A DNA stretch of 41,237 nt. It comes from an uncultured Oscillospiraceae bacterium (GTDB taxonomy: Bacteria; Bacillota; Clostridia; Oscillospirales; Oscillospiraceae). The stretch covers positions 1-41,237 of the forward strand of contig CANROC010000022.1 of NCBI GenBank assembly GCA_947632175.1, in the 5' to 3' direction. Every line of letters begins with the position of its first letter. Within the stretch, counting starts at the first letter, position 1. The notes beneath the pieces were generated by a model. It worked only from the letters and a program-made list of their open reading frames with translations. It did no database searches and was not told the origin of the DNA. This document shows, piece by piece, positions 12,936 to 39,694 of this stretch. The position numbers and the translations under genes are program-made.

Positions 12936-12952
12936 ACAGACGTCCTCCAAAT

Positions 12953-13891
12953 TCACCTTTCCGCGATCAGCGTGGCCATGGCGCCGTAGATGCCGGCGTC
13001 GTTGTAGAGAGTGGCGAGGACGATGGGGGTGTCCTTACAGGCGGGGAAGGCGAGGGGGCGGTAGTGGGCGCGGGTCATGTCCAGGAGGAGCTGGCCGGCG
13101 CGGGAGACGCCGCCGCCCAGGACGATGGCCTCCGGGTCCACGGTGCCGGTCACCGCGGCGAGGCCCCGGGCCAGATACGCGCAATACTCGTCCGCAATCC
13201 TCAGGGCCAGGGGGTCGCCGGCGTTGGCGGCGTCCCAGACGGCCCTGGCATCCGGGTCGGGGAGGGAGCGGAGGGTCGAGGGCTCGGCGGAGGCGGACAG
13301 GGCCTCGCGCGCCAGGCGCGCGCAGCCGGTGGCGGAGGCGTACTGCTCCAGGCAGCCGTGGCCGCCGCAGTTGCATTGGAGCGCCTCCTGGGGATTGACG
13401 GGGATGTGGCCGATCTCGCCGCCGGCGCGGTGGGCGCCGCGAAGACACTTGCCGTCTAAAATGATGCCGCCGCCCACGCCGGTGCCCAGGGTCACCAGGA
13501 CCATGCTTTTGTAGCCCATACCGCCGCCGCGCCACGCCTCGCCCATAGCGGCCAGGTTGGCGTCGTTGTCGCCCACGGCCCGAAGGCCGGTGAGGCGCTC
13601 AAGCACCGGGAGGAGGGGCTGGTGGTCCCAGCCTAAGTTGACGGCGCTGGCCGTGCCGTCGGGCCAGACCTGACCGGGAGCGCCTACGCCCAGGCCCAGG
13701 TAAGCGTCCCCGGAAAAGGGGCGCTTTTTCATGTCCGTAAGGATGGAGGCGGCGATGTCGCCGGGGATGTGGGCCCCGTGTTCGCTTGTGTCCGTAGGGA
13801 TGGACCACTGGTCGAGAAGCGTGCCGTCCTCGGAAAAGAGGCCGAGCTTTACCGTGGTGCCGCCAATGTCGATGCCGTAGCCGTAAGTCAT
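12953..13891 (-). CDS. glcK: ROK family glucokinase
   Basis: 312 residues, the usual ROK glucokinase length. The phosphate-binding motif GIDIGGTTVKLGLF is at 6-19 and the catalytic aspartate lies in GDNDAN (D110). The zinc site is H162 with C173, C175 and C180 (GHIPVN, then CNCGGHGCLE). The expected reaction is ATP-dependent phosphorylation of glucose or a related hexose in the cytoplasm. The start overlaps the upstream gene's stop by 4 bp and uses GGAGG inside that gene, so translation is probably coupled. N-acetylmannosamine or another sugar as substrate cannot be excluded. Confidence 0.88.
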   Translation of the reverse strand: MTYGYGIDIGGTTVKLGLFSEDGTLLDQWSIPTDTSEHGAHIPGDIAASILTDMKKRPFSGDAYLGLGVGAPGQVWPDGTASAVNLGWDHQPLLPVLERLTGLRAVGDNDANLAAMGEAWRGGGMGYKSMVLVTLGTGVGGGIILDGKCLRGAHRAGGEIGHIPVNPQEALQCNCGGHGCLEQYASATGCARLAREALSASAEPSTLRSLPDPDARAVWDAANAGDPLALRIADEYCAYLARGLAAVTGTVDPEAIVLGGGVSRAGQLLLDMTRAHYRPLAFPACKDTPIVLATLYNDAGIYGAMATLIAER

Positions 13892-18073: not shown

Positions 18074-21000
18074 ATGAAGAGATTTTTGGCAATGGTGTTG
18101 ACGGTCGTCATGGTCTTGTCGCTTTGTTCCTTCCAGGTCTTTGCGGCGGACGCGACGGAGAATAAGGATCATCTAAAGCTCCAGGATATCGATTGGAGTA
18201 AAGGTACCACTAATGTCAATGGGACGATTTTCAGCTTTTCGAGTACGCATAATTTAACAAATGCCACTAAATCCTTTAACACGCTCAGTGAGAACGACCC
18301 GGTGTCGTGTACAAAGGCGATGAAGATCGAGACCGGAACAGAGATCAAATTTACCGCGCCCGGCAAAGGGACGTTGTATCTCTATTTCTGCAAATTCGCG
18401 TCAGGCAACACGATCAAGATCAACGACCAGGCGAAGCCGTTGACCGCCGAAAAGTTCGAATACAGCACGAAAGCCAACGAATCCGTCACCGTTTCCAAGG
18501 GCTCCGGCAATCCGCAGCTCGGTTACATCGAGTGGGTTTCCGCCGGCCCCGACATATCTTTTGCAGATGCGGCGGATGAGGGCGTTCAGTTCAACATTCA
18601 CGTGGGCGCGACAGAACCCATTTCGGTCCCGTTTACCGTGTCGGGTTTTAAGGATGACCCGGCGCTTCAGGTTTTTGCGTTTTCCAACAATAAAAATATT
18701 ACCGCGACGGTCGCACGTGCGGAGGCCAGCGGGATCGCCACAACCGCAGCCAATTCTGTGAACGGGGACTATGTCCTGACAATCAAGCCTGACAGTGGGA
18801 TTAGTGCGGGCACCAAGGCCACGATTTATGTGGGTGTGGACAAAGAGGCACCGACAAGCGAAGAGACTGCCGAAGAAATGCAATGCGTGCAGACCATCAG
18901 CCTGACCGTCACGGAAGAATCCGAGCGAAAAGAGGCGCTTGAGGCCGGAACGCTTTATATGCCCGCCCTGGGGCTGTCGGATATTTCCAATCTTCATTTG
19001 AACGATGAGTTGATTTTCGTTCTGAAAGACCCGAGCGACGGCAAGACAAAAGCCATCGGATGGGACGGCAGTAATTGGCTTGTTGGCATTGATGTCAAGA
19101 AGGACGATAAGGGCAAGTATGTTGTGGTGGACAAGGACAAAGAAAATACCGTTGCCCTGAACGTCAGCGATGATACCTTTAGTATCAATAGCGGGTACGC
19201 AAAAGGCCGGCTCATAAGGAAATCATCCAGTGATCAATATTTTTCCCCGTCGAACTTGAAAGGCGGCACCAATGACACGCCTTTCGGAACTTCTAATAAA
19301 GATATGAGAATCTACACGGGATTGGACGGCGTGTTCTATCTGCGCGGCAACAGCGACGGAAAACAGTTTTTGGGATATAACAACGGATTTAAGGGTGTAT
19401 TCGATACCGCCGAGGAAGCCGAACAATACCGCATCCCGGTTGAGATCTACATAAAGGCGCCGTCTAATTCTATTCCCGTATACTACCATGACTATCAAAC
19501 CGCGGGTGAAATTGCAGCCACACAGTATGTGAAAGAAGGTACGAAATTCCGGCCTCCTGTTCCGAATGACGTGAGGATCGGCGATGAGACCTACACATTG
19601 TTCGGGTGGACCACGGACAACACATATATCGACGGAACGAATAATCTTCTCGGGGACGACGATTATGTCAACCTCTATCAATTTGACAAAACGTCAGGCA
19701 CGTACGGCCTTTTTGGGCTTAAATCTGAAACTGTAACGAAGTTAAAAAGTCATTTCCGTACACTTATTGAGTATGACGAGGATTCGAAAAACAAAAACCA
19801 AAAAGGAGAGGAGACTACCCCCAGGGCCAATGACTTCGTGGAACAGGATACGACGGACAAGACCAAGATCGACCTCTATCCCGTTTACGTTCTGAGCGGG
19901 AAAAACAAAGAGGTCACGGTTTCAAACGCCAGCGGGACCGCGTCTATCACCGTTGACAACGTCAGCACCAACGCCACGGCGCCCAGGTGGCGCGGGTCGC
20001 TGACCGTTCAGATCTTTATTGACGGCAAGCCGAGCGGCGACGCGCAGACCATGTACTTCTTCTACAACTCCGACAACACGGTGGATATCAAGCTGGAGCT
20101 GACGGATGAGGACGGAAACGCCATTAACGCCGAAACCTCCCCGTTTATCATCAACGCCGTCGTCGCCGAGCAGAGCGGCACCAGCAGCAACGGGGTAAAT
20201 GGCGGAATCGAGCGAAAAAGCAACGTTTTGACCGCCACAGGCGGAAAGTTGGACAACGTCATCGGCGGGAGCACCGTTAAAATCTACATGAGCACCCGCT
20301 ACCGCGCAGAATTTTATCTGAACAAAGAGAAAATCAACAAGCAATCGACCCAAATTAAGGCCATTTCGGATAACTATTATTCCACCACAGAAAACAGAAC
20401 GGACTTTGATCGTAATTTTGCCGGTAAAGAAGCTTTCATCGTAGCGAAGACGGCGGATTTTGAGAGCGGTGAATATGGTTCTGACGTTGAAAATATATCG
20501 CCTGAGGTATTTAAAAGTAACGATAAATTTTATGGCGCTAAAGGTGCCGGGGACGTTGCTACCCTGGAGCACGGCGGGCGGTATCTCTTTGGGTATATCG
20601 TCCAGACGTATGATGATCATTTTACCGTTCCCTCGCCCAAAGAGGCGCTTTCGGCGGGACAGGAGCTTTTACATGGAGAAACTTGGAAGTTAAAAAATGG
20701 CGCCGCTGAAACATACACCGATCAGAATAGCGGTGTGACATTCAGCGTTTCGAGCAACACCGCCCTTGCGGACGACGGGGTGTTCCGGTTTTACGCCTAC
20801 ACAGCCGGCAGCCTGACGATCACTAAGAACGTTGTCGGGCTTTCCACAAGCCGGGATTACACCTTCACCGTCACAGGGCCTGACAGCTTTAAAGAGGAAG
20901 TTACCATAGAAGACGTCACCGGCACAGGCTCTACAACCCTCACCGGCCTCGCTCCCGGCGAGTATACCGTCACGGAGGAGAATGCCGACGTCCCGGGGTA

Positions 21001-24000
21001 CGACCTTTACGTCTCCAACAAGAGAGTTACCGCCACCGTGGAGGCCGACGAGACGGCTGAAGTCACCTTCACGAACACTTATACCCGCAAAACCAGCGAT
21101 CTGCTGATCCGCAAAGAAGTCACCGGCGTTACAGATAATACGACAGAATTTAAGTTTACCCTTACGCTCACCGCGCCCAGTGGGGTGACGCTCAATTCCG
21201 ATGCGGAGTACAGCTACAGCGGGAGCAAGAGCGGCACGGTCAAGAGCGGCGGGACCTTTAAGTTGAAGGGCGGCGAGTATATCACCATCACCGGCATCCC
21301 TCAGGGGGTGACTTATACGGTCACCGAGACGCCTGACGCCAGCTTCACCTCCACCGCCACAGGGGACACCGGTACCATCGGCGAGGGGACCTCGAACGCC
21401 GTCTTTACCAACGCCCTCAAGACCGGGTCCCTCATGATCACCAAGACGGTCACCGGCGTGGACGGTCTTCAGGTGAAGAGGCAGTTTACCTTCACCCTCA
21501 CGCCGACGGACGTGGCTTACGAAAACGGTACGCCCACCGTGACGAACGCGACGCGCAACGCGGACGGCTCCTACACCGTCACGCTGGACTACGATTCCAC
21601 GCAACCCGTCAATGCCGTGACAGTGTCCGGCCTGCCCGTGGGCACATATTCCGTCACCGAGGCGCTTGACGCGGACAGCCTGTACACCGCGAGCGTTGAC
21701 GAGCCTTCCGTGACCGTCGCCGACGGGAAAACCGTGACGGTCATCGTCACCAACACCATGAAGACGGGCAGCCTGAAGGTATCCAAGACGGTGGATGTTA
21801 CGTCTGGAATACCGGCTGAAAGTGTTCCCGCCGGGACCAGCTTCCACTTCACAGTCACCTTTGACAAGTTCCCCGAGGGCGTGAGCCAGTTTGACGTGAT
21901 GGTGGGTACGGGTTCGCAGTCCGTCACGTCCGGCGGCGGGAATAAGGTGGAATTTGACCTCCAGGCCGATGGAAACATCACGCTGTCCGGCATCCCCGCC
22001 GGCGTGGCATACGAGGTCACCGAGAGCTTCGAAGACGTGCTCACAGGGCTCCACTATGAGCAGGCATGGACCGGCCAGAAGGGGAGTATTTCCTCCGGCA
22101 CGACTGCCAATGTTACCTGCAAGAATACCTACCATCTGCTCCAGAAAGACACCGGCGGACTGAGGATCATTAAGGAGGTCGACGGAGAGCCCAGCACCAA
22201 GGAGTTTACTTTCACCATCACATTTACCAAAGATGGGAAGCCTCTTACGGAGCTCGCCGATCACACTAAGTTGAGTGCCGACGGTGTTTTGACGGTCACA
22301 TTGAAAGCAGGGGAGACAGAGTTTATCCCCAATATCCCCGTCGGGACAAATTACCGGGTCGAGGAGACATTCGGGAGTACCGCCGATGAACCCTCGGATG
22401 TGACTGTGGTGCTTTCCGACAATGAGCCGGGCGACCAGGACCACCATGAGAACCGTTACGTTGAGGGCACGATCGGCAGACAGTACAACATCGACACGCT
22501 CACCTATACCAACCACTATCGGGGCAATCTCACGATCAGCAAGACGGTCGAGGGCGGCAATGTCGGGGACGAGTTCACCTTTACCGTCACACTCCCCGCC
22601 GGGACGTACAGCTATGTGGGCGACAAAACCGGCACCGTCTCCAACGGCGGCCAGATCACGCTCAAGGGCGGCGAATCCGTCACCATCAAGGGCCTCCCCG
22701 TCGGCGGGAAATGGTCCGTCACGGAGACGGGCGACCCCAACTACACCGCCGATAGTGTGACGCTCAGCGGGACCATTACGAAAGGCGCGACCGCCACGGC
22801 GGCCTTCAAGAATACCCGCAAGACCGGGTCGCTGACCGTGCGGAAGGTCGTCACCGGCAAGCTGGGGCTTGAGGAGACGGACAGGAGCTTCAACTTCACC
22901 GTCACGCTCACCGGCGCCGGCGAAGGCTTCACGGGGACATGCGGCGGCGTGAGCTTCACAAACGGCGTCGGGACCTTCCAGCTCAAGAAAGGCGAGAGCA
23001 AGACGCTCACCGGCCTGCCCGCGAACGCCGGGTATACGGTCCGGGAGACGGACGCCAACTCCGACGGGTATGTCACCACGGTACCGGACAACGCCGTCGG
23101 GACCGTCACGGAGGGCGGCGCCACCGTTACCTTTGTCAACGACAAGCCCGACACCGGGACGCTGACCATCGAGAACGTTGTCGTAAACGCCCCCGCCGGG
23201 GACGAGGACAGGGCGTTTACCTTCACCATCACGCTCTATCTTGACGCGGCTATGACCCAACAGGCCACGGACGTCAACGGAGAGCACGGGGGCCTGACCT
23301 TTGAAAACGGCGTCGCGACCTTCACGCTGAAAAACGGAGAGAGAATCACCGCCCGGGGCGAGGTCACCGCCGCCCAGGGAAGCCTCTACTACAGGATCGT
23401 GGAAACGCCGGCCCCGAATTATAAGGCGTCCTCCGTGACCAACGACACAAACGGCCAAGCCGGCGGCGCGACAGTGACGGGCGCGTTCACCCAGGCCAGC
23501 GCCAACACCACCGTCACCTTCACCAACACCTACGAGGCGCCCCGCCAGCCAAGTGGGCCCACAGGGCCGGGCCCCTATACGCCGCCTCCCACGCTGAACA
23601 CCGAGGACCATTTTGCCTACATCATGGGCTACGGCGACAATGAAGTGCGGCCCGGCGGGGACATCACCCGCGCCGAGATCGTCACCATCCTCTTCCGGCT
23701 CCTGACCGATGAGACGAGGGCAAAGTACATGGCCGCCGAGAATGTCTTCCCGGATGTGAAGGACACCGACTGGTTTGCCCTGGCCGCCAACACCATGGCG
23801 AACATGGGCATCGTCTATGGAGACGAGAGCGGTTTCCGGCCCAACGACCCCATTACCCGCGCGGAGATGGCCGCCATTGTGAGCAGGTTCTTCGAATACA
23901 GCGGGGATACAGCCTTTGACGGCAGGTATTCCGACGTGAAGGAGGACGACTGGTTCGCGGGATTCGTCCATATGGTCTCCCGCGTCGGCATCATGCTGGG

Positions 24001-24289
24001 CGACAGCGAGGACACCTTCAGCCCGCTGGACCATCTGACCCGTGCCCAGGCCATGGCCGTGATGAACAGGCTCCTGGGCCGGAAGATTGACCGGCGCGGG
24101 TTCCTCGAGGGGATGATCGCGTGGGTCGATAACGACGACAAGAGCGCCTGGTACTACGCCGACGTCCAGGAGGCCACCAACTCCCACACGTGCCAGGAGG
24201 TCACCGAGGACGGCGTCACCTACGAGCGGTGGACGGAGCTTACGGACAACCGCGACTGGACCGAATTTGAGCACGGCATCGGCGAGTGA
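18074..24289 (+). CDS. Giant SLH-anchored surface protein with eight DUF5979/prealbumin-like repeats
   Basis: 2071 residues. A classical signal peptide (KRFLAMVLTVVMVLSLCSFQVFA, cleaved after about residue 24) is followed by a region of about 880 residues. Its first part resembles a clostridial carbohydrate-binding-like beta domain (TGTEIKFTAPGKGTLYLYF), and near 475-520 there is an InlB-like stretch (YTLFGWTTDNTYI). Eight prealbumin/DUF5979-type repeats start near 912, 1008, 1118, 1232, 1361, 1484, 1585 and 1695. Seven carry the Lys (K918, K1014, K1124, K1238, K1367, K1490, K1591), Glu and Asn pattern of intramolecular isopeptide domains. A Pro-rich linker (about 1822-1845) leads to three SLH modules (about 1848-2005) with TRAEIV, TRAEMA and TRAQAM motifs. 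There is no LPxTG. It is expected to be a cell-surface stalk held to wall polymers by SLH. The weak ribosome site is GAGGG, 6 nt before ATG. Confidence 0.88.
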   Translation: MKRFLAMVLTVVMVLSLCSFQVFAADATENKDHLKLQDIDWSKGTTNVNGTIFSFSSTHNLTNATKSFNTLSENDPVSCTKAMKIETGTEIKFTAPGKGTLYLYFCKFASGNTIKINDQAKPLTAEKFEYSTKANESVTVSKGSGNPQLGYIEWVSAGPDISFADAADEGVQFNIHVGATEPISVPFTVSGFKDDPALQVFAFSNNKNITATVARAEASGIATTAANSVNGDYVLTIKPDSGISAGTKATIYVGVDKEAPTSEETAEEMQCVQTISLTVTEESERKEALEAGTLYMPALGLSDISNLHLNDELIFVLKDPSDGKTKAIGWDGSNWLVGIDVKKDDKGKYVVVDKDKENTVALNVSDDTFSINSGYAKGRLIRKSSSDQYFSPSNLKGGTNDTPFGTSNKDMRIYTGLDGVFYLRGNSDGKQFLGYNNGFKGVFDTAEEAEQYRIPVEIYIKAPSNSIPVYYHDYQTAGEIAATQYVKEGTKFRPPVPNDVRIGDETYTLFGWTTDNTYIDGTNNLLGDDDYVNLYQFDKTSGTYGLFGLKSETVTKLKSHFRTLIEYDEDSKNKNQKGEETTPRANDFVEQDTTDKTKIDLYPVYVLSGKNKEVTVSNASGTASITVDNVSTNATAPRWRGSLTVQIFIDGKPSGDAQTMYFFYNSDNTVDIKLELTDEDGNAINAETSPFIINAVVAEQSGTSSNGVNGGIERKSNVLTATGGKLDNVIGGSTVKIYMSTRYRAEFYLNKEKINKQSTQIKAISDNYYSTTENRTDFDRNFAGKEAFIVAKTADFESGEYGSDVENISPEVFKSNDKFYGAKGAGDVATLEHGGRYLFGYIVQTYDDHFTVPSPKEALSAGQELLHGETWKLKNGAAETYTDQNSGVTFSVSSNTALADDGVFRFYAYTAGSLTITKNVVGLSTSRDYTFTVTGPDSFKEEVTIEDVTGTGSTTLTGLAPGEYTVTEENADVPGYDLYVSNKRVTATVEADETAEVTFTNTYTRKTSDLLIRKEVTGVTDNTTEFKFTLTLTAPSGVTLNSDAEYSYSGSKSGTVKSGGTFKLKGGEYITITGIPQGVTYTVTETPDASFTSTATGDTGTIGEGTSNAVFTNALKTGSLMITKTVTGVDGLQVKRQFTFTLTPTDVAYENGTPTVTNATRNADGSYTVTLDYDSTQPVNAVTVSGLPVGTYSVTEALDADSLYTASVDEPSVTVADGKTVTVIVTNTMKTGSLKVSKTVDVTSGIPAESVPAGTSFHFTVTFDKFPEGVSQFDVMVGTGSQSVTSGGGNKVEFDLQADGNITLSGIPAGVAYEVTESFEDVLTGLHYEQAWTGQKGSISSGTTANVTCKNTYHLLQKDTGGLRIIKEVDGEPSTKEFTFTITFTKDGKPLTELADHTKLSADGVLTVTLKAGETEFIPNIPVGTNYRVEETFGSTADEPSDVTVVLSDNEPGDQDHHENRYVEGTIGRQYNIDTLTYTNHYRGNLTISKTVEGGNVGDEFTFTVTLPAGTYSYVGDKTGTVSNGGQITLKGGESVTIKGLPVGGKWSVTETGDPNYTADSVTLSGTITKGATATAAFKNTRKTGSLTVRKVVTGKLGLEETDRSFNFTVTLTGAGEGFTGTCGGVSFTNGVGTFQLKKGESKTLTGLPANAGYTVRETDANSDGYVTTVPDNAVGTVTEGGATVTFVNDKPDTGTLTIENVVVNAPAGDEDRAFTFTITLYLDAAMTQQATDVNGEHGGLTFENGVATFTLKNGERITARGEVTAAQGSLYYRIVETPAPNYKASSVTNDTNGQAGGATVTGAFTQASANTTVTFTNTYEAPRQPSGPTGPGPYTPPPTLNTEDHFAYIMGYGDNEVRPGGDITRAEIVTILFRLLTDETRAKYMAAENVFPDVKDTDWFALAANTMANMGIVYGDESGFRPNDPITRAEMAAIVSRFFEYSGDTAFDGRYSDVKEDDWFAGFVHMVSRVGIMLGDSEDTFSPLDHLTRAQAMAVMNRLLGRKIDRRGFLEGMIAWVDNDDKSAWYYADVQEATNSHTCQEVTEDGVTYERWTELTDNRDWTEFEHGIGE
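20807..23541 (+). repeat. Coding repeats: eight tandem prealbumin-like modules
   Basis: Each module is about 95-130 codons. It opens with a GSLTITKxV-type strand, has a xxYTVTE strand late in the unit and closes with xVTFTNT. Repeats 2 and 6 share a GTV(K/S)xGG..LKGGE segment, the closest pair visible. The eighth unit opens GTLTIENVV, so the lysine position is Asn1701. Confidence 0.8.
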
Positions 24290-24391: not shown

Positions 24392-25393
24392 TTACTTGTT
24401 GAGCGCCTGGTCCACGGCCACGGCCACGGCGACGGTGGCGCCGACCATGGGGTTGTTGCCCATGCCCAGGAAGCCCATCATCTCCACGTGAGCGGGGACG
24501 GAGCTGGAGCCGGCGAACTGGGCGTCGGAGTGCATACGGCCCATGGTGTCGGTCATGCCGTAGCTGGCGGGGCCGGCGGCCATGTTGTCCGGGTGCAGCG
24601 TGCGGCCCGTGCCGCCGCCGGAGGCCACGGAGAAGTACTTCTTGCCCTGCTCAATGCACTCCTTCTTGTAGGTGCCGGCCACGGGGTGCTGGAAGCGGGT
24701 GGGGTTGGTGGAGTTGCCGGTGATGGAGACGTCTACGCCCTCATGGTGCATGATGGCCACGCCCTCGCGCACGTCGTCCGCGCCGTAGCAGCGCACGGCC
24801 GCGCGCTCGCCGTTGGAGTAGGGGATCTCACGGACGATCTTCAGCTCGCCGGTGTAGTAGTCGAACTGGGTCTGGACGTAGGTGAAGCCGTTGATGCGGG
24901 AGATGATCTGGGCGGCGTCCTTGCCAAGGCCGTTGAGGATGACGCGCAGGGGGGTCTTGCGGGCCTTGTTGGCGTTGCGGGCAATGCCGATGGCGCCCTC
25001 AGCGGCGGCGAAGGACTCGTGGCCCGCCAGGAACGCGAAGCACTTGGTGTCGTCCCTGAGGAGCATGGCGCCCAGGTTCCCGTGGCCCAGGCCCACCTTG
25101 CGGTCGTCGGCCACGGAGCCCTTGATGCAGAAGCTCTGCAGGCCGATGCCGATGACCTCGGCGGCCTCGGCGGCGGACTTGACGCCGCGCTTTAAGGCGA
25201 TGGCCGCGCCCACGGTGTAGGCCCAGCAGGCGTTCTCAAAGCAGATGGGCTGGATGCCGCGGACGATGTTGTAGGCGTCCACGCCGGCGTCGTCGCAGAT
25301 CTTCTTGGCCTCCTCCAGGGAGGCGATACCGTTCTCATTGAGGACGGCATTGACGTTGTCTATTCTTCTCTCATAGCTTTCAAAAAGAGCCAT
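24392..25393 (-). CDS. GGGtGRT protein
   Basis: 333 residues, named for its conserved glycine-rich motif, here SGGGTGRT (G259-T265). Other conserved-looking stretches are GLGHGNLGAMLLRDDTKCFAF, EGVDVSITGNSTNPTRFQHP and GFLGMGNNPMVGATVAVAVAV. The family is known mainly from anaerobes and has no proven activity. It is nearly always paired, as here, with a NifU-like scaffold protein, which suggests an Fe-S or metal-cluster role (inference). The ribosome site AAGGAGG is excellent, and the gap to the upstream gene is 18 bp. Expression should be high given the promoter. Confidence 0.88.
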   Translation of the reverse strand: MALFESYERRIDNVNAVLNENGIASLEEAKKICDDAGVDAYNIVRGIQPICFENACWAYTVGAAIALKRGVKSAAEAAEVIGIGLQSFCIKGSVADDRKVGLGHGNLGAMLLRDDTKCFAFLAGHESFAAAEGAIGIARNANKARKTPLRVILNGLGKDAAQIISRINGFTYVQTQFDYYTGELKIVREIPYSNGERAAVRCYGADDVREGVAIMHHEGVDVSITGNSTNPTRFQHPVAGTYKKECIEQGKKYFSVASGGGTGRTLHPDNMAAGPASYGMTDTMGRMHSDAQFAGSSSVPAHVEMMGFLGMGNNPMVGATVAVAVAVDQALNK

Positions 25394-31898: not shown

Positions 31899-31982
31899 GC
31901 GGGCATGGTGTAATGGCAGCCACGGTGGTCTTAGGAGCCACTGGAGAGATCCGTGCAGGTTCGAATCCTGTTGCCCGCACCA
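31899..31982 (+). tRNA. tRNA-Leu (anticodon TAG)
   Basis: A complete 84-nt cloverleaf including an encoded CCA. The acceptor GCGGGCA pairs with TGCCCGC. The D arm is short (GTG/CAC). The anticodon stem GTGGT/GCCAC carries loop CTTAGGA with TAG at 31932-31934. The 13-nt variable arm contains GGA/TCC, as in class II tRNAs. The T stem GCAGG/CCTGT has loop TTCGAAT. It would decode CTA and, by wobble, other CTN codons. A terminator follows 31 nt after the CCA. Confidence 0.85.
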
Positions 31983-32121: not shown

Positions 32122-32151
32122 TTGACAGCCGCTTGAAGTTTCAGGTAAAAT
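32122..32151 (+). promoter_or_regulatory. Sigma-A promoter of the NHLM-type export operon
   Basis: TTGACA (32122-32127), 18 bp, TAAAAT (32146-32151). The first gene begins about 158 bp later, leaving a leader of about 150 nt (32158-32308) with no recognised riboswitch. It is the only clear promoter seen before 39.7 kb on this strand. Confidence 0.7.
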
Positions 32152-32308
32152 CGATACTGCCTTACTATGGGGTGATTGGATGCATCGGAAAGGGCGTTGA
32201 CGGCCCCTGCCATGACGACGTGGAGACCGTCCAAACACCTTCGGAGCAAGCGCAACCAACTGTTACGCATACACAATGAACTGAGACTCAAAAAAGGAGG
32301 AAAAGAAC

Positions 32309-32554
32309 ATGACAGACGACAAGAAAATGATGCACGGAGAGGTATCCCCCGAACAGGAGAACATTCTGGAGAACGTCTCCGGGGGAAAAGTGGAGTTCAC
32401 AAAGCCGGTTTATGATCAGAATCCCTATATCGTCCCGTGCCCCGCCTGCGGGGGAGGGATCGACATTGACAGCGTGAATCCTCCGTATAGGGTGCATTGC
32501 AGCTCCTGCGGCCGCTGGTTCCACTATGAGGGAGTAACGCTGGTCGAGGAGTAA
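32309..32554 (+). CDS. Double-glycine-leader zinc-ribbon-like secreted peptide precursor 1
   Basis: 81 residues. Residues 1-26 form a charged leader ending ILENVSGG, with GG at 25-26 and hydrophobic residues at -4 (V23) and -7 (L20), the pattern cut by C39 peptidases. The 55-residue core holds two cysteine knuckles, C44-P-A-C47-G and C64-S-S-C67-GRWF, 16 residues apart, like a zinc ribbon. It has no Ser/Thr/Cys-rich core of the lanthipeptide kind. Cleavage and export by the C39 ABC transporter two genes downstream is the natural inference. The gene starts after AAAAAAGGAGG, nearly the same leader DNA as precursor 2 (38579), pointing to duplication. I know of no described family; it could be a bacteriocin, a signal or a metal-binding surface factor. 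Confidence 0.82.
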   Translation: MTDDKKMMHGEVSPEQENILENVSGGKVEFTKPVYDQNPYIVPCPACGGGIDIDSVNPPYRVHCSSCGRWFHYEGVTLVEE

Positions 32555-32659
32555 CGGTCTGTACGAGGAGAAAAAAGGCCGGTACCGGCAGATAACCCCC
32601 AAACGTGCCTGCGGACGAGCCGGGGACGTGACGGAGGGCTTCGCGAAGGAGGGGCGGCG

Positions 32660-33136
32660 ATGGAAAAGGGGCTGTTTCGGCAGAAGACGCTGGACAAGGT
32701 ATCGAGCCCGGAGCAGATGAACGAGTATATCCGGGTGACCGGTCCGGGGGTGTGGCTGGTGCTGGGGGCGGTTATCGCGCTTTTGGCGGGGCTGATCGTC
32801 TGGTCGGCGCTGGGGCGGCTGGAGACCACGGTGACAGCCGTGGCGGTGTCGGGGCCGGACAGCGGGACGGTGTGCTACATAGCGGAGAGCGACCTGGACG
32901 AAGTCCGGGCCGGGCAGACCGTGCACATCGGCGGGGCGGACTATACCCTTTCCGAGGTGGCCCCGAGACCCGTGGCGGTGGACGGGAGCTTCGACGCCTA
33001 CGCCCTGCACGTGGGCGGCCTGGAGGTCGGCCAGTGGGTGTACCCGGCGAAGCTGGACGGGACGCTGGAGGCCGGCGTCTACGAGGCCGGGATCGTGGTG
33101 GACAGCGTGCCGCCCATCTCCTTTTTGCTGAACTGA
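32660..33136 (+). CDS. Short NHLM-type HlyD-like secretion adaptor
   Basis: 158 residues. The N-terminus (FRQKTLDKVSSPEQMNEYIRVTGPGVWL) followed by one membrane helix (about 32-50) matches NHLM bacteriocin-system HlyD-like secretion proteins. The outer part (about 55-158) is a short beta-rich module (SDLDEVRAGQTVHIGG) with no coiled-coil hairpin. Typical family members are clearly longer, so this is a minimal adaptor suited to a cell with no outer membrane. It has an excellent ribosome site (AAGGAGG) and lies 7 nt before the ABC1 gene. It should sit in the membrane with the two ABC subunits. Confidence 0.78.
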   Translation: MEKGLFRQKTLDKVSSPEQMNEYIRVTGPGVWLVLGAVIALLAGLIVWSALGRLETTVTAVAVSGPDSGTVCYIAESDLDEVRAGQTVHIGGADYTLSEVAPRPVAVDGSFDAYALHVGGLEVGQWVYPAKLDGTLEAGVYEAGIVVDSVPPISFLLN

Positions 33137-33143
33137 GGCGCCC

Positions 33144-35315
33144 ATGAAGAAGGAGATCAGAAAGCCCGTCACAAAGGGCGCGGCAAAGGTGCCGGTGGTC
33201 ATGCAGATGGAGGCGCTGGAGTGCGGCGCGGCCAGCCTTGCCATGGTGCTGGCCTTTTACAATAAGTGGGTCCCTCTGGAGCAGGTGCGCGCCAACTGCG
33301 GCGTGAGCCGGGACGGCTCCAACGCCAAAAACGTGCTGAAAGCCGTCAGATCCTACGGCCTCACGGCGAAAGCCTACCGGCTGGAGCCGGAGGACCTGCG
33401 GGAGGACGGGATGTTCCCCTGCATCATCCACTGGGACTTCAACCACTTTGTGGTGCTGGACGGCTTCAAGGGCGGCAAGGCCATACTGAACGACCCGGCC
33501 CGGGGTGTCGTCCCGGTGAGCATGGAGACCTTCGACGAGTCCTTCACCGGCGTGTGCCTGATGTTCGAGCCGGGGGAGGACTTTCAGCCCGGCGGCAGTC
33601 CCAAGAGCATGGCGGGCTACGCCAGAAAGCGCCTCACCGGCGCGGGAGCCGCGCTGGCGTTCGTGATGCTCACCACGCTCATAAGCTCCCTGTTCGGCGT
33701 CCTGAGCCCCGCCTTCTCCCGGGCCTTCCTGGACCGGCTTCTGACGGGCCGGAACCCGGAGTGGCTGTGGCCCTTTGTGCTGATCCTGGCGGGGGTGAGC
33801 GTCTTGCAGCTCGTGGTGGCGTGGGTGCAGGCCATATGGTCCCTGCGCATCACGGGCAAGCTGGCCTCGGTGGGATCGGCCACGTTCCTGTGGAAGGTCC
33901 TGCATATGCCCATGGAGTTTTTCTCCCAGCGCATGGCCGGAGATATCCAACAGCGGCAGGCCGCCAACGCCTCCATCGCCCAGGAGCTGGTGAATACCCT
34001 GGGCCCGCTGGTGCTCAACGCCATCATGACGGTGTTCTATCTGGCGGTCATGCTGCGCTATTCCTGGATATTGACCATGGTGGGTCTTTTTTCCGTGGTC
34101 ATTGACCTTGCGGTGAGCCGGTTCATCTCCAAAAAGCGGGTGAACATCACCCGGGTGCAGATGCGCGACTCCGGGAAGCTGGCCTCCTCCACCATGGCGG
34201 CCATCGAGATGATGGAGACCATCAAGGCCGCCGGGGCGGAGAACGGGTATTTTGAACGGTGGGCCGGCTACCAGGCCAGCGTCAACACACAGGAGACGCG
34301 CTTTGCCAAAACCGACGCGTACCTGGGCCTCATTCCCTCCGTCGTGAACATCGTCTGCAATATGACCATCCTCTTCCTGGGCGTGCTCTTCGTCATGCGG
34401 GGCAGCTTCACCGTCGGTATGGTCATGGCCTTCCAGGGCTTCCTCATGAGCTTCACCGCCCCGGCGACGACCCTCATCGGCGCGGGACAGACCGTCCAGG
34501 AGATGCGTACCCAGATGGAACGAGTGGAGGACGTGATGGAGTACCCCGAGGACAGCGTCATGGCCGAGGGGGAGGCGCGGGAGACCTGCGGCAAGCTCTC
34601 CGGCGCCCTGGAGCTGCGCCACGTCACCTTCGGCTACTCCAAGCTGGCCGAGCCCCTCATCGAGGATTTCAATCTCTCTCTGAAGCCGGGGAGCCGGGTG
34701 GCCCTCGTGGGCGGGTCCGGCTGCGGGAAATCTACGCTGGCCAAGCTCATCTCCGGCCTCTACCGGCCCTGGAGCGGCGAGATCCTCTTCGACGGCAAGC
34801 CCATAGACGAGATCGACCGGAGCGTCTTCACCGGATCGCTGGCGGTGGTGGATCAGGACGTGATCCTCTTCGAGGACACCATCGCCAACAACATCAAGAT
34901 GTGGGATAAGTCCATCGAGGACTTTGAGATGATCTTAGCGGCCCGTGACGCGGGCATCCACAGCGACATCGTGAAGCGCGAGGGCGGGTATAACCACAAG
35001 CTCACCGAGGGGGGCCGGGATTTCTCTGGCGGCCAGCGCCAGCGCATGGAGATCGCCCGGGTCCTGGCGCAGGACCCCACCATCCTCATCCTGGACGAGG
35101 CCACCTCCGCCCTGGACGCCAGGACGGAGTACGAGGTGGTGAAGTCCATCAAGGACCGGGGCGTCACCTGCATCGTGGTGGCCCACCGGCTCAGCACCGT
35201 CCGGGACTGCGACGAGATCATCGTCCTGGACCGGGGGAAAGTGGCGGAGCGCGGTACCCACGAGGAGCTTTACGCCAAGGGCGGGGTCTATACCCGCCTT
35301 GTGTCCAACGACTGA
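33144..35315 (+). CDS. NHLM-type peptidase-containing ABC transporter (C39 peptidase, TMD, NBD)
   Basis: 723 residues. The N-terminal C39 cysteine peptidase is complete: C27 in ALECGAASLAMVLAFY, H101 in FNHFVVLDG and D117 in LNDPARG. A six-helix transmembrane domain (about 160-440) follows. The ABC ATPase carries Walker A GGSGCGKST (523-531), signature FSGGQRQR, Walker B ILILDEATSALD and a switch histidine in VAHRLS. It should cut leaders after GG and pump the cores out using ATP. Both flanking precursors have matching leaders. It belongs with the adaptor before it and the partner ABC after it, as in NHLM bacteriocin clusters, and the three genes are closely spaced. Confidence 0.93.
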   Translation: MKKEIRKPVTKGAAKVPVVMQMEALECGAASLAMVLAFYNKWVPLEQVRANCGVSRDGSNAKNVLKAVRSYGLTAKAYRLEPEDLREDGMFPCIIHWDFNHFVVLDGFKGGKAILNDPARGVVPVSMETFDESFTGVCLMFEPGEDFQPGGSPKSMAGYARKRLTGAGAALAFVMLTTLISSLFGVLSPAFSRAFLDRLLTGRNPEWLWPFVLILAGVSVLQLVVAWVQAIWSLRITGKLASVGSATFLWKVLHMPMEFFSQRMAGDIQQRQAANASIAQELVNTLGPLVLNAIMTVFYLAVMLRYSWILTMVGLFSVVIDLAVSRFISKKRVNITRVQMRDSGKLASSTMAAIEMMETIKAAGAENGYFERWAGYQASVNTQETRFAKTDAYLGLIPSVVNIVCNMTILFLGVLFVMRGSFTVGMVMAFQGFLMSFTAPATTLIGAGQTVQEMRTQMERVEDVMEYPEDSVMAEGEARETCGKLSGALELRHVTFGYSKLAEPLIEDFNLSLKPGSRVALVGGSGCGKSTLAKLISGLYRPWSGEILFDGKPIDEIDRSVFTGSLAVVDQDVILFEDTIANNIKMWDKSIEDFEMILAARDAGIHSDIVKREGGYNHKLTEGGRDFSGGQRQRMEIARVLAQDPTILILDEATSALDARTEYEVVKSIKDRGVTCIVVAHRLSTVRDCDEIIVLDRGKVAERGTHEELYAKGGVYTRLVSND

Positions 35316-35326
35316 GGAGGCGCGCT

Positions 35327-37504
35327 ATGGGATGGTTTGACGAACAGATACGCCAGCGCCGCCTCCAGGACCGGCAGGCCTTGGAGGAGGGCTTCGCCTC
35401 CATCGCGGGGGCGGTCCTGGGCCGCCGGATCGTGCCGGAGGACGAGACACAGCGCGCCAAAAGCGCCATCGACGAGGTCCTGCGCTTCTACCACGCCAAG
35501 AGCCGGGAGGTGCCCGACTCGGTGAAGGACTTTGACGAGCAGCTGGAGTTTCTTCTGCGCCCCTACGGCATCATGCGCCGGCGGGTGACGCTGGAGAAGG
35601 GCTGGTACAAGGACGCGGTGGGGGCCATGCTTGCCCGCCGGCGGGACAACGGCGCCCTCACGGCCATGATCCCCACGGGCCTTTCCGGCTACACCTACAT
35701 AGACCCCGACACGGGCAAACGTCAGCGTGTGAACGCCCGGACGGAGGAGCTTTTTGAAAAAGAGGCCGTCGCCTTCTATAAGCCTTTCCCCCAGGGGAAG
35801 ATGGGCATCCCGGGCCTTATGAGGTACATCGCCTCCTGCACGTCCTGGGGAGACTGGGTCCTCTTCGCCGCCTCCGTGCTGGCGGTGAGCCTGGTGGGAC
35901 TGCTGATGCCCCGGCTCAATAATCTCTTATTCTCCCGGGTGGCGGACAGCGGCAGCGTCACGGTGCTGGCGGCGCTGGTGAGCTTCATGCTCCTTGTGAG
36001 CGTCAGCTCCCGGCTTTTGGAGACGGCCAAGCGCCTGCTCACCGCGCGCATGAGCACGAAGGTCTCCGTATCCGTGGAGGCCGCGGGGATGATGCGGCTT
36101 TTCTCCCTGCCGGCCAACTTCTTCCGGTCTTACAGCACCGGCGAGATGACCAGCCGCGTCACGAACATCAAGACGCTGTCCACTCTGCTCATCTCCTCGG
36201 TGGCGGCGGTGGGGCTGACCAGCTTATTCTCCCTTTTGCAGATCACCCAGATCTTCGCCTACGCCCCGGCGCTGGTGACGCCGGCGCTGGCGATCGTGGC
36301 GGTGACGTTGGCGTTCTCGGTGCTCACCTCCGTCCGCCAGCGGGGCGTCACACAGCAGCAGATGGAGGAGAACGCCCGGGAGAACGGCCTTACATACGCC
36401 CTCATCAGCGGCGTACAGAAGGTGAAGCTCTCCGGCGCGGAGAAGCGCGCCTTCGCCAAGTGGAGCGAGCAGTACGCCAAGGGGGCGCGGCTCCGGTACG
36501 ACCCGCCCATGTTCCTGAAGGTGAACGGCGTCATCAGCCTCGCCATCTCCCTCACGGGGACGCTGGTGATGTACGTGGCGGCGGTGGAAAGCGGCGTGTC
36601 CGCGGCGGAATACTACGCCTTCAACTCCGCCTACGCCATGCTGAGCGGCGCTTTCATGTCCCTGGCCGGCATCGCGGCCATGGTGGGGCAGATCGCCCCC
36701 ATCCTCCACATGGCAAAGCCCATATTGGAGGCCGAGCCGGAGATCGGGTCGGACAAACAGGTGGTGGAGCGCCTCTCCGGCGGCATCGAGCTCAACAACG
36801 TCTCCTTCCGCTACTCGGAGGATATGCCCAATGTGGTGGACGACCTGAGCCTCAGGATCCGTCCCGGGCAGTATGTGGCCATCGTGGGCAGGACCGGCTG
36901 CGGCAAGAGTACGCTCATGCGGCTTCTGCTGGGCTTTGAGACGCCCCAGAGGGGGGCCATCTACTACGACGGCCGGGACATGGCCGGCCTCGACCTCAAG
37001 AGCCTCCGGCGGCGCATGGGCGTGGTGATGCAGGACGGCAAGCTCTTTCAGGGGGATATCTACTCCAACATCACCATCTCCGCGCCGGGCCTCACCATGG
37101 ACGATGCCTGGGCGGCGGCGGAGATGGCGGGCGTGGCGGAGGACATCCGGCAGATGCCCATGGGGATGCACACTCTCATATCCGAGGGCAGCGGCGGCAT
37201 CTCCGGCGGCCAGCGCCAGCGGCTCCTCATCGCCCGGGCCATCGCCCCGAAGCCCCGCGTCCTCCTGTTCGACGAGGCCACGTCGGCCCTCGACAACATC
37301 ACCCAGCGTGTGGTGTCCGAGTCCCTCGACAAGCTCAAATGCACCCGCATCGTCATCGCCCACCGGCTCAGCACCATCCGCCGCTGCGACCGGATCATCG
37401 TCCTGGACGGCGGCCGCATCATAGAGGACGGCACCTACGACGACCTCATCGCCCAAAACGGCTTCTTCGCCGACCTCGTGGAGAGACAGAGGCTGGATAC
37501 GTAA
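35327..37504 (+). CDS. NHLM-type ABC transporter partner (no peptidase domain)
   Basis: 725 residues. The N-terminal about 165 residues are soluble and lack the C39 triad (KDFDEQLEFLLRPYGIMRRRV, YIDPDTGKRQRVN). Such a non-peptidase front domain is characteristic of the second NHLM ABC protein. Six membrane helices (about 170-460) and an ATPase domain follow, with Walker A GRTGCGKST (K527), signature ISGGQRQR, Walker B LLFDEATSALD and IAHRLS. It probably forms a heterodimer with the peptidase-bearing transporter. The start is 11 nt after the previous stop with GAGGAGG before ATG. Confidence 0.92.
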   Translation: MGWFDEQIRQRRLQDRQALEEGFASIAGAVLGRRIVPEDETQRAKSAIDEVLRFYHAKSREVPDSVKDFDEQLEFLLRPYGIMRRRVTLEKGWYKDAVGAMLARRRDNGALTAMIPTGLSGYTYIDPDTGKRQRVNARTEELFEKEAVAFYKPFPQGKMGIPGLMRYIASCTSWGDWVLFAASVLAVSLVGLLMPRLNNLLFSRVADSGSVTVLAALVSFMLLVSVSSRLLETAKRLLTARMSTKVSVSVEAAGMMRLFSLPANFFRSYSTGEMTSRVTNIKTLSTLLISSVAAVGLTSLFSLLQITQIFAYAPALVTPALAIVAVTLAFSVLTSVRQRGVTQQQMEENARENGLTYALISGVQKVKLSGAEKRAFAKWSEQYAKGARLRYDPPMFLKVNGVISLAISLTGTLVMYVAAVESGVSAAEYYAFNSAYAMLSGAFMSLAGIAAMVGQIAPILHMAKPILEAEPEIGSDKQVVERLSGGIELNNVSFRYSEDMPNVVDDLSLRIRPGQYVAIVGRTGCGKSTLMRLLLGFETPQRGAIYYDGRDMAGLDLKSLRRRMGVVMQDGKLFQGDIYSNITISAPGLTMDDAWAAAEMAGVAEDIRQMPMGMHTLISEGSGGISGGQRQRLLIARAIAPKPRVLLFDEATSALDNITQRVVSESLDKLKCTRIVIAHRLSTIRRCDRIIVLDGGRIIEDGTYDDLIAQNGFFADLVERQRLDT

Positions 37505-37562
37505 ACGGATATAAAGGCTGCGGCTTTTATATATAAAATTCTTTTATAGGAGGAAAAAGACA

Positions 37563-37760
37563 ATGACAGTTTCGGACAAGATCAGAGTTGTGTTCAGCGT
37601 TATAGCGGCGGCCGGGTTGTTCGGCGTGTGCTTTGTGCTCCAAAGCAACGAGGCGCTGCCCATGTGGACACGCATTCTGGTGGATGTGCTGGCCGTGATC
37701 AACCTGGTGTGCACCATCGTGACCAACCAGGAGCTGGCAAAGAAGGCAAAAAAGCAATAA
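37563..37760 (+). CDS. Small two-helix membrane protein
   Basis: 65 residues, not recognised. Two hydrophobic helices (about 8-27 and 36-54) are joined by a short loop (LQSNEALPMWTR), with a lysine-rich C-terminus (LAKKAKKQ). There is no double-glycine motif, so it is not obviously cargo. A strong ribosome site (AGGAGG) supports expression. In this position it could be a self-immunity protein or a transporter accessory subunit; that is inference from context only. Confidence 0.75.
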   Translation: MTVSDKIRVVFSVIAAAGLFGVCFVLQSNEALPMWTRILVDVLAVINLVCTIVTNQELAKKAKKQ

Positions 37761-37771
37761 AAGGAAGGAAT

Positions 37772-37794
37772 GCCGCCGGCCCCCGGCCGGCGGC
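37772..37794 (+). other. Intra-operon GC hairpin
   Basis: A perfect 10-bp stem (37772-37781 with 37785-37794, loop CCC) without a T run. It could mark an RNA-processing or mRNA-stability boundary between the exporter genes and the downstream genes. Confidence 0.5.
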
Positions 37795-37815
37795 GCTTGT
37801 GTTCAAGGAAAGGGA

Positions 37816-38559
37816 ATGGTCATGGTGAAAAAGAAGTTTATAAAGCTTGCGGCGCTGGCGCTGGCGGTGCTCCTGGTCTTGGGCGCATGCGGCAAGACGG
37901 AGGCAAAGAGCGGCTCCCCGGAGGACGCCTCGGGCTTCGTCTCCCTGGCGGAGGCGGTGCCGGATGTGATCCTGGAGATACGGTATTATTCCACCTACAA
38001 CTTCGTGGGCGACAGGATCGCGGGCTATGAAGAGCCCTGCGCCCTTTTGACCCGTGAGGCGGCGGAGGCCCTGAAGGGCGCGTCCGCCGACGCGATGAAG
38101 CAGGGCTACCGCCTGAAGATCTACGACGCCTATCGGCCCCAGACGGCGGTGGACAACTTCGTGGAGTGGGCGGAGGACGTGGACGACACCCGCATGAAGG
38201 CGTATTTTTACCCCGAGCTGGACAAATCCGTCCTCTTCGATCAGGGCTACATCGCCGCCAAGTCCGGCCACAGCCGGGGCAGTACCCTGGACCTGACGCT
38301 CTTTGACATGGCCACGGGCAAGGAGCTGGACATGGGCGGCACCTTCGACTATTTCGGGGAGCTCAGCCACCCGGACTACGTGGGGGACCTGACGGAGGAG
38401 CAGATCGCGAACCGCAATACCCTCCGGGATATCATGGTCAGCAACGGCTTTAAGCCCCTGGCCGAGGAGTGGTGGCACTTCACCCTGGCCGACGAGCCCT
38501 ACCCGGACACCTACTTCACCTTCCCGGTGACCAGCGAATCCGTGGCATCTGACAAATAA
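37816..38559 (+). CDS. VanX-like D-Ala-D-Ala dipeptidase lipoprotein (M15D)
   Basis: 247 residues. A lipoprotein signal with lipobox LGAC (C25) places it on the outer face of the membrane. The M15D zinc dipeptidase motifs are intact: DAYRPQT (R107), SGHSRGSTLD (H152, D159) and EEWWHF (E218, H221), with the same spacing as in VanX. The expected reaction is hydrolysis of D-Ala-D-Ala. Vancomycin-type VanX is cytoplasmic, so this exported form more likely acts on wall-derived dipeptides. No vanH, vanA or VanRS genes are present, so it is not a resistance cluster. ATG at 37816 is used; an in-frame ATG at 37822 is equally possible. Confidence 0.87.
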   Translation: MVMVKKKFIKLAALALAVLLVLGACGKTEAKSGSPEDASGFVSLAEAVPDVILEIRYYSTYNFVGDRIAGYEEPCALLTREAAEALKGASADAMKQGYRLKIYDAYRPQTAVDNFVEWAEDVDDTRMKAYFYPELDKSVLFDQGYIAAKSGHSRGSTLDLTLFDMATGKELDMGGTFDYFGELSHPDYVGDLTEEQIANRNTLRDIMVSNGFKPLAEEWWHFTLADEPYPDTYFTFPVTSESVASDK

Positions 38560-38578
38560 TCTTAAAGGAGGAAAAAAC

Positions 38579-38803
38579 ATGTCAGACGAGAAGAAAACGG
38601 CGCCGAAGAACGCCCTGGACGAGAAGACCTTGGAGGGTATCGCCGGCGGGGGCTTCACTATGCCGCCCCCTGTCCTGTCCATACAGTGTCCCTGTGGGGC
38701 AAAGATAACCTACGAAAGCAGTATGGATAGGGTGCAGTGTACTGACTGCGGCCGCTGGTTCTGGGTCATCAACGGCATGCTGATAGAGGAAAAGCAGGGC
38801 TGA
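38579..38803 (+). CDS. Double-glycine-leader zinc-ribbon-like secreted peptide precursor 2
   Basis: 74 residues, paralogous to precursor 1. The leader ends LDEKTLEGIAGG (GG at 23-24; hydrophobics at -4, -7 and -12: I21, L18, L13), a textbook C39 site. The 50-residue core has C37-P-C39-G and C54-T-D-C57-GRWF. The second knuckle and the following WxxxxGxLIEE match precursor 1, while the first is CxC instead of CxxC. The ATG follows TTAAAGGAGG and the first codons resemble those of precursor 1. It lies 19 nt after the dipeptidase stop, the last intact gene of the operon. Confidence 0.82.
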   Translation: MSDEKKTAPKNALDEKTLEGIAGGGFTMPPPVLSIQCPCGAKITYESSMDRVQCTDCGRWFWVINGMLIEEKQG

Positions 38804-38846: not shown

Positions 38847-39694
38847 ATGAAGGGAACTTCCAAAACGGCGCGACTGGGAGCGCTGGCGCTGGCGGTTCTG
38901 ATGCTTCTATGTCTGCTCACGGCCTGCGGCGGGAAGGACGAGGCCATCACCACGCCTGCCGAGCTCGACAAGCCCGACCACACCGTGGGCGTGGCCGTGG
39001 GCTCCTCCGGGGACACGGCGGCGGCCAGGAACTTCCACAACGTGGGAATCAACCGCAGCTCCGACAGCGCCTTCCGGGACACCGAGAAGCTCTATTACAA
39101 CAACTATTCCGACATGGTGGAGGCGCTCAAACAGAACAAGACGGCACCATAGAATACGCCGGCGCGCCGGGCATGAAGCCCCTCAGCTATATGAAGAACA
39201 ACCGCCTGATGGGCTATGAGGTGGACCTGGCGACCCGCTTCTGCAAGGAATACGGCTACGGTCCGCACATCCAGATCGTGGAGTTTCCCACCATGCTGGC
39301 CGGTCTTGAGGCCGGCAAATACGACATCGGCGCCGGGGGCATCACCGTCTCCGACGAGCGCGCGGAGAAGATGAACTTCACCGATCCCACATATACCGGC
39401 GGCGTGGTGGTGGCGGTGGCCGGCGTGAATATCAGCGGCGTGGCCGTGTCCGTCGTGGCCTTCGCCATCAACTTCGCGGCCTACGTCTCCGAGATGATGC
39501 GCACGGGCATCGAGGCCGTGAACAAGGGCCAGTGGGAGGCCGCCCAGGCCCTGGATTACGACTTCATCGGCCAGTCCGAGAGCATCCGGCGCTTCGGCGA
39601 GAAGAACCTCCTGGGCCACAAGCGTGTGCTGGGCCTCCAGACCGTGTACGAGGAGATTTTGGCCCAGTCCATCGTCCCCCGCATGGGCGCATAA
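38847..39694 (+). pseudogene. Decayed amino-acid ABC transporter gene (substrate-binding protein/permease fusion)
   Basis: The 5' part encodes a lipoprotein signal (lipobox LTAC) and the first lobe of an extracellular solute-binding protein family 3 domain (VGVAVGSSGDTAA, YSDMVEALKQ). It stops at 39150. Homology resumes near 39138 in another frame (GTIEYAG.., LMGYEVDLATRFCKEYGYG, GLEAGKYDIGAGGITVSDER). It then jumps directly into an amino-acid permease segment (VAFAINFAAYVSEMMRTGIEAV, KGQWEAAQALDYD) and ends in an unrelated tail. At least one frameshift and two internal deletions are needed. It still has a good ribosome site, so only a truncated lipoprotein would be made. Confidence 0.82.

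Follow-up and report, generated by a model that had tools for sequence, protein, structure and literature searches.

A stretch of DNA from an uncultured Oscillospiraceae bacterium (assembly GCA_947632175.1, contig CANROC010000022.1, positions 1 to 41,237; the whole 41,237 nucleotides are referred to as the window) contains an NHLM/PCAT-type export operon whose cargo probably consists of small, apparently unmodified metal-binding miniproteins. The original prediction of an exporter accompanied by two four-cysteine open reading frames (ORFs) with double-glycine (GG) leaders was confirmed at positions 32309-38803. At the level of sequence, the two GG-leader ORFs, P1 and P2, were shown to lie on either side of the only C39 exporter detected in the genome (G000, 97.7% complete), on the same strand, and similar ORFs joining a GG leader to a zinc-ribbon-like core were shown to accompany this exporter family in many Clostridia. 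The order on the + strand is promoter-like site, P1, HlyD-like gene, ABC1, ABC2, 65-aa ORF, M15 lipoprotein gene and P2:

32122..32151, +, sigma-70-like promoter upstream of P1, TTGACA-18 nt-TAAAAT (consensus scan, 11/12 matches; 2 sites against 1.5 expected by chance)
32309-32554, +, P1, 81 aa (GG at residues 25-26; AGGAGG-like site upstream)
32309..32386, +, P1 double-glycine leader, 26 aa, ...ILENVSGG (L-7, V-4, GG at -2/-1; E at -12, where a hydrophobic residue is usual)
32387..32551, +, P1 core, 55 aa, CPAC..CSSCGRWF, zinc-ribbon-like (mature peptide predicted to begin at K27)
32660..33136, +, short HlyD-like adaptor, 158 aa, one transmembrane segment by hydropathy (N-terminal match to TIGR03794)
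33144..35315, +, NHLM ABC1 with C39 peptidase, permease and ATPase (TIGR03796 over cut-off; catalytic triad, Walker motifs)
35327..37504, +, NHLM ABC2 with permease and ATPase, lacking a peptidase (TIGR03797 over cut-off; Walker A/B, ISGGQ)
37563..37760, +, 65-aa ORF with two putative transmembrane segments, candidate immunity protein (two hydrophobic stretches; no family over cut-off)
37771..37795, +, terminator-like hairpin 3' of the 65-aa ORF (11 pairs, 10 of them G-C; weak, 6 sites against 5.3 expected)
37816..38559, +, VanX-like M15 D-Ala-D-Ala dipeptidase lipoprotein, uncertain member of the system (PF01427 147.8 bits; NF033115 213.3, below its cut-off of 320)
38579-38803, +, P2, 74 aa (GG at residues 23-24; AGGAGG-like site upstream)
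38579..38650, +, P2 double-glycine leader, 24 aa, ...LDEKTLEGIAGG (L-12, L-7, I-4, GG)
38651..38800, +, P2 core, 50 aa, CPCG..CTDCGRWF, zinc-ribbon-like (mature peptide predicted to begin at G25)

The exporter and its relation to known systems

Judged by its proteins' sequences, the exporter is a standard NHLM system. A C39 ABC transporter with an intact C27/H101/D117 triad and a non-peptidase partner had been proposed, and both assignments held: ABC1 scored 931.5 bits against TIGR03796 (cut-off 853.3) and ABC2 724.8 bits against TIGR03797 (cut-off 709.4). The exporter remained below the cut-off of bacteriocin_ABC TIGR01193 (337.7 against 523.85), and the C39 domain of ABC1 was the only C39 match in the genome at E <= 0.001. 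Related loci were taken as the best 80 of 498 relatives from one ABC1 scan of genome contigs (66-88% identical), and are referred to together with the window as the 81 sources. Because only the best 80 were kept, the set leans to close relatives. The triad was intact in the window and in 80 of the 81 sources overall, ABC1 of L073 being split over two frames. The predicted HlyD-like adaptor stood as regards its first ~48 residues, which matched TIGR03794; the protein is only 158 aa long and scored 34.1 bits, short of the cut-off of 156.2. A homologue was found in 80 of the 81 sources (L030 excepted), and since none of 80 homologue frames exceeded 250 aa, the short form is the rule here. Both flanking small genes possess the leaders ascribed to them, but P2 is separated from the transporter by the 65-aa ORF and the M15 lipoprotein gene. 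A second ABC2-like piece (75% DNA identity), which may point to tandem exporters, was seen ~7 kb upstream of the main exporter in L008 (L008:3-700).

NHLM systems with Nif11 or NHLP leaders share with this operon the ABC1 and ABC2 families (over cut-off here), an HlyD-like partner and hypervariable GG-leader cargo (TIGR03793-TIGR03798). They differ in that the P1 and P2 leaders fall outside TIGR03798 and TIGR03793, neither of which was among the matches at E <= 1, and in the zinc-ribbon-like cores, the short HlyD-like protein and the lack of a nearby modification enzyme. Parts of Haft 2010 (PMC2887384) describe some NHLM members that have no identified thiazole/oxazole-modified microcin (TOMM) or lanthionine enzymes. 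For the PCAT LahT of Lachnospiraceae C6A11, sections of the published account (PMC6363468) place the recognition motif in the leader's 13 C-terminal residues and report that very different cores are tolerated. LahT is alike in this broad tolerance of its C39 domain and in serving several precursors per exporter (same sections). It differs in that LahA peptides are Nif11-leader precursors of a lanthipeptide operon, whereas no LanC-like gene was found in the window's genome. Class II bacteriocins, which are unmodified double-glycine peptides, resemble the present system at the level of genes in a GG leader handled by a dedicated C39 ABC exporter, a small, unmodified-looking core and possibly a small membrane immunity ORF. 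Unlike them, P1 and P2 have an acidic core with a four-cysteine, zinc-ribbon-like fold, and the exporter is of the NHLM and not the bacteriocin_ABC type.

By analogy with LahT, the C39 domain of ABC1 would dock the leader helix and cut after GG, before K27 in P1 and before G25 in P2. ABC1 and ABC2, together with the short HlyD-like protein, would move the 50-55-residue cores outside the cell, where the four cysteines may bind a metal, zinc or another, or else pair as disulfides. As apo, unmodified peptides, the mature cores have calculated average masses of about 6174 Da (P1) and 5625 Da (P2).

Zinc-ribbon-like cores as one cargo type among several

The P1 and P2 cores fit a four-cysteine zinc ribbon, as had been suggested from their letters; zinc binding itself is predicted. 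A profile of 15 cores matched the solved zinc ribbons LysW (3.2e-6), RNAP subunit P (5.2e-6) and eS27 (1.7e-5). AlphaFold2 returned a confident all-beta model for P2 (pLDDT 88.9), with LysW as its closest VIA match, and a weaker one for P1 (pLDDT 70.0). Two cysteine pairs within a ribbon sequence pattern and the predicted structure thus both agreed with this fold, although the invariance of the cysteines in the core alignment is partly due to row selection. Foldseek gave no match at E <= 0.001, so the basis for the fold is the profile search together with the model and its VIA comparison. P1 and P2 scored over cut-off against none of the Pfam or NCBIfam families, those of known bacteriocins included. 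Likeness to LysW extends to the predicted fold and the four-cysteine pattern. However, LysW is a cytosolic carrier, and P1 and P2 remained below the cut-off of its family PF21344 (15.8 and 12.1 bits against 27). The P1 and P2 cores are acidic (isoelectric points 5.1 and 4.9), which is evidence against a simple cationic pore-former, and lack hydrophobic segments.

In the 80 loci (1.18 Mb), short ORFs were sought that combine a strict GG leader with a Shine-Dalgarno-like site. The exporter strand carried 170 of them and the opposite strand 4; a relaxed control, accepting any GG within residues 11-82, gave 347 against 52. The strict hits and three ORFs from the window made up 169 distinct precursors, including the window ORF 25019-25195, which is antisense to a GGGtGRT gene and was taken as a spurious hit. 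Two CxxC pairs 10-54 residues apart were present in 46 of the 169 cores, as compared with 2.98 on average, and never more than 7, in 500 shuffles of the cores. With CxC allowed, the count rose to 64, against 8.6 expected from shuffling (maximum 17). The search for further genomes pairing the exporter with small GG/CxxC ORFs, which the original prediction had proposed, thus succeeded: the two-CxxC type was present in 25 of the 80 loci and in the window, and any strict-rule precursor in 57 of the 81 sources. From the shuffle excess and the locus counts, the zinc-ribbon-like type appears to be real and common, yet one cargo type among several. Seventy of the 169 precursors had cysteine-free cores. 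Further apparent cargo included GG-leader LysM proteins (PF01476; L065:12476-12811, L080:10562-10768), an NlpC/P60-like domain (PF00877; L084:5542-5949) with Ala at the expected catalytic Cys, as read by eye from the motif, and short helix-like peptides.

A second four-cysteine GG-cargo pattern, C..C.HF..DCPYG....CP, was seen in G294 (in tandem on L136, and on L138) and G216 (L140), and similar ORFs in L008:5733-5978 and L009:80-319. Near the exporters of gut Clostridia, STAS (46 of the 81 sources), SpoIIE phosphatase (40) and HATPase_c_2 (38) domains formed a partner-switching-like set, and a sigma-70-type factor was found in 32 of the 81; neither had a match in the window.

Modification enzymes and occurrence apart from the exporter

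That no modification enzyme stands beside the cargo also proved correct. LanM, YcaO and radical-SAM genes were absent among the operon ORFs. LanC-like PF05147 was found in none of 26 genomes (the window's and 25 with two-CxxC loci), and YcaO in none of 13, the window's included. Lanthipeptide, YcaO and local radical-SAM pathways were rejected for the window, their genes being absent. SPASM radical-SAM proteins were present in all 26 genomes. The window's genome has three such genes, all on other contigs: SCIFF and ACGX maturases over cut-off, each adjoining its own substrate peptide, and a TIGR04133-like one below cut-off. The nearest radical-SAM ORF in the window (11949-12956) lies on the other strand, ~19 kb from the exporter; it reached no NCBIfam cut-off and aligned weakly to an enzyme of locus L045 (25% over 118 residues, E 5e-5). 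An ACGX-repeat Cys-rich peptide of the window's genome (G000:C2, L098:359-1642) was accompanied by a radical-SAM maturase scoring 579 bits to TIGR04340.

Several findings weigh against P1 and P2 being exported, unmodified members of a distinct class. A tblastn search with the L045 radical-SAM protein gave matches in 18 of the 80 loci, L045 included. Nine were of a close type, 58-100% identical to L045 (L012, L013, L014, L033, L037, L044, L045, L054 and L066); the others were L078 (42%), seven loci at 26-29% (two of them also close-type) and the weak matches L047, L052 and L055. The proposal that the cargo is unmodified draws all its evidence from the absence of candidate enzymes, and because in some relatives Cys-rich precursors, mostly of the Nif11 type, have a radical-SAM gene next to them, we only infer it. 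The proposed distinct cargo class was borne out in part, by the recurrence of GG-leader, zinc-ribbon-like ORFs. It has no sharp boundary, however: four-cysteine cores also occur on Nif11 leaders in the relatives, where 42 of 75 such precursors matched TIGR03798 at E <= 0.01, and several of these loci have an adjacent radical-SAM gene. As to whether such ORFs occur mostly without the transporter, the result was mixed: three of ten genomes (G057, G113 and G139; 76, 82 and 66% complete) gave no C39 match, and in G109, G216 and G294 some ORFs are distant from the exporter. Conservation gives no support to the 65-aa ORF as a candidate immunity protein, as none of the 80 loci gave a homologue at E <= 1e-3. 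For the M15 gene, homologues were confined to L006 and L007 and lay on the opposite strand, and a conserved immunity gene was rejected on both counts.

The cores could be substrates of a pathway for ribosomally synthesised and post-translationally modified peptides (RiPPs), in which a radical-SAM or other enzyme encoded elsewhere crosslinks the cysteines before export, as in ranthipeptides or sactipeptides. The SPASM gene adjoining Cys-rich, mostly Nif11-leader precursors in the nine close-type relatives points this way, as do the three SPASM enzymes of the window's genome and the radical-SAM ORF in the window itself. We consider it distinctly unlikely, since those three genes are all located on other contigs and two adjoin substrates of their own, the ORF in the window reached no cut-off and the core pattern resembles ordinary zinc ribbons. 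Leader type argues similarly. Among loci reaching 8 kb or more downstream of ABC1, and with the weak L047, L052 and L055 counted as lacking a match, zinc-like precursors with long, Nif11-type leaders were divided between loci with (19) and without (15) a radical-SAM match, while of the 24 with short leaders, the kind to which P1 and P2 belong, 3 were in loci with a match and 21 in loci without.

Three enzyme and precursor associations were seen in the related loci. A SPASM radical-SAM family (L045:12916-14313, L101:219-1610 and homologues) adjoined Nif11-leader Cys-rich precursors, several ending in YEKGLWLCN-like sequence. It scored below the cut-offs of its best 25 NCBIfam matches, and the pair is possibly an undescribed RiPP type. 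Repeated CAC..GGGG-like cores stood beside the distant radical-SAM type (26-29%) in L023:12927-13274, L017:14278-14628, L012, L013 and L048. Finally, an ORF with an HxxxDG motif, which we take to be condensation/acyltransferase-like, was located near ABC2 and precursors in nine loci (L005:13077-14375, L074, L027, L028, L031, L032, L039, L049 and L050). It had no Pfam match at 1e-5, and the ORFs of the close relatives L005 and L074 were 27-29% identical to those of the other seven.

Among 300 genomes of the family, TIGR03796 was matched at E <= 1e-150 in 40, of which 34 were over cut-off. The A1 profile, built from exporter-adjacent ORFs, matched in 264 of the 300, but the rows listed were mostly partial (model positions ~33-66) and inside longer frames, and this count was not used. 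GG-leader, zinc-ribbon-like ORFs were read in seven genomes with the exporter (G000, G008, G109, G216, G224, G280 and G294) and in the three without; none was found in G181 and G171 as read. Exporter presence in 7 of 10 such genomes, compared with 40 of 300, gave a hypergeometric probability of 4e-5, a figure that leans towards association because exporter-adjacent ORFs served to train the profile, some of the stretches were chosen near the exporter and the reading covered a subset of the matches. These data bear on the possibility that P1 and P2 are intracellular zinc-ribbon proteins, whose leader-like ends are real or accidental and which have the exporter nearby by coincidence. The three genomes lacking a detectable C39 gene and the ORFs distant from the exporter would fit this explanation. 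The strand bias in the exporter loci and, within its limits, the enrichment of the exporter run counter to it, and we regard it as very improbable.

Cargo turnover and possible role

The exporter block (32660-37501) shared 83-86% DNA identity with L005-L009 and L074 (in L074 only to 37042, where the locus ends). P1 and P2 did not align in these loci, and the flanks did so only in part (the M15 gene in L006 and L007; 6601-7325 in L008). A conserved exporter block with non-aligning cargo is as expected if the cargo is changeable. Within the genus, the exporter of G181 had only 68-70% DNA identity, and the 17 kb read there contained a single GA-leader ORF, its core free of cysteine; four other genomes had no TIGR03796 match at E <= 1e-150. 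A single TIGR03796 exporter was found in each of G216 and G294, apparently the genomes of L006 and L007. In stretches chosen for A1 profile or P1 matches, GG-leader ORFs were also read on other contigs: G294 had 19, spread over seven contigs, and G216 had 10, over five. The window's genome had no further A1 profile match starting in the leader at E <= 10. The ratio of nonsynonymous to synonymous substitution rates (dN/dS) exceeded 1 in three of ten cargo pairs (L008/L009 zinc core, 1.07; L045/L054, 1.44; L006/L007 'b', 9.2 with a tiny dS) and was 0.14-0.37 in the remaining seven; ABC1 gave 0.08 and 0.22 (the latter L008/L009) in two of these locus pairs. With mixed ratios and few sites, general positive selection of the cargo is not claimed.

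A genomic island at tRNA-Leu (31899-31982) was unsupported, as the tRNA 3' end was not repeated elsewhere in the window; in the corresponding check, no tRNA was found in L145, L005-L009 or L074. Downstream of P2, and outside the system, an apparently broken amino-acid solute-binding/permease gene remnant occupies two frames (38847-39694; SBP_bac_3 in the second). A 2071-aa surface protein with DUF7601, DUF5979 and SLH domains is encoded at 18074-24289, in a stretch of lower G+C.

As to function, P1 and P2 could well be antagonistic or signalling molecules acting on other gut bacteria, with the 65-aa membrane ORF as candidate immunity protein, though we hold this role tentatively. The turnover of cargo between relatives points towards interaction with other bacteria, as do the many paralogues and the companions that bind peptidoglycan. 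Next in likelihood comes a role in metal scavenging or at the wall. In its strict form, the miniproteins would have no antagonistic role and would serve as secreted ligands for metal or as metal buffers associated with the wall. This seems rather unlikely, even though the cores are four-cysteine metal ribbons, acidic and free of hydrophobic segments, other cargo of the exporter family carries peptidoglycan-binding modules (LysM in L065 and L080, NlpC/P60-like in L084) and an M15-type peptidase is encoded between the exporter and P2. Cargo that varies between neighbouring genera and within the genus is unlike a housekeeping metal buffer, and a scan of 29 window ORFs revealed neither a zinc regulator nor a gene for metal transport.

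We did not recognise a description of zinc-ribbon cargo of NHLM exporters in searches of an open-access full-text library, a scope outside which most subscription journals fall. As we read the field, NHLM exporters are usually taken as parts of RiPP pathways, so that genome mining seeks modification enzymes first. Beyond the operon in the window, it is possible, though speculative, that in gut Clostridia a single NHLM/PCAT exporter serves as a general secretion line for unmodified folded miniproteins dispersed over the genome (zinc ribbons, other four-cysteine proteins, LysM and NlpC/P60-like proteins) and provided with an interchangeable GG leader, forming a secretome and not a RiPP cluster. 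Export of a metal-binding fold would raise the mechanistic question of how a peptide exporter handles it. If the same were true for many NHLM exporters, a sizeable group of small secreted proteins of gut anaerobes would have been overlooked.

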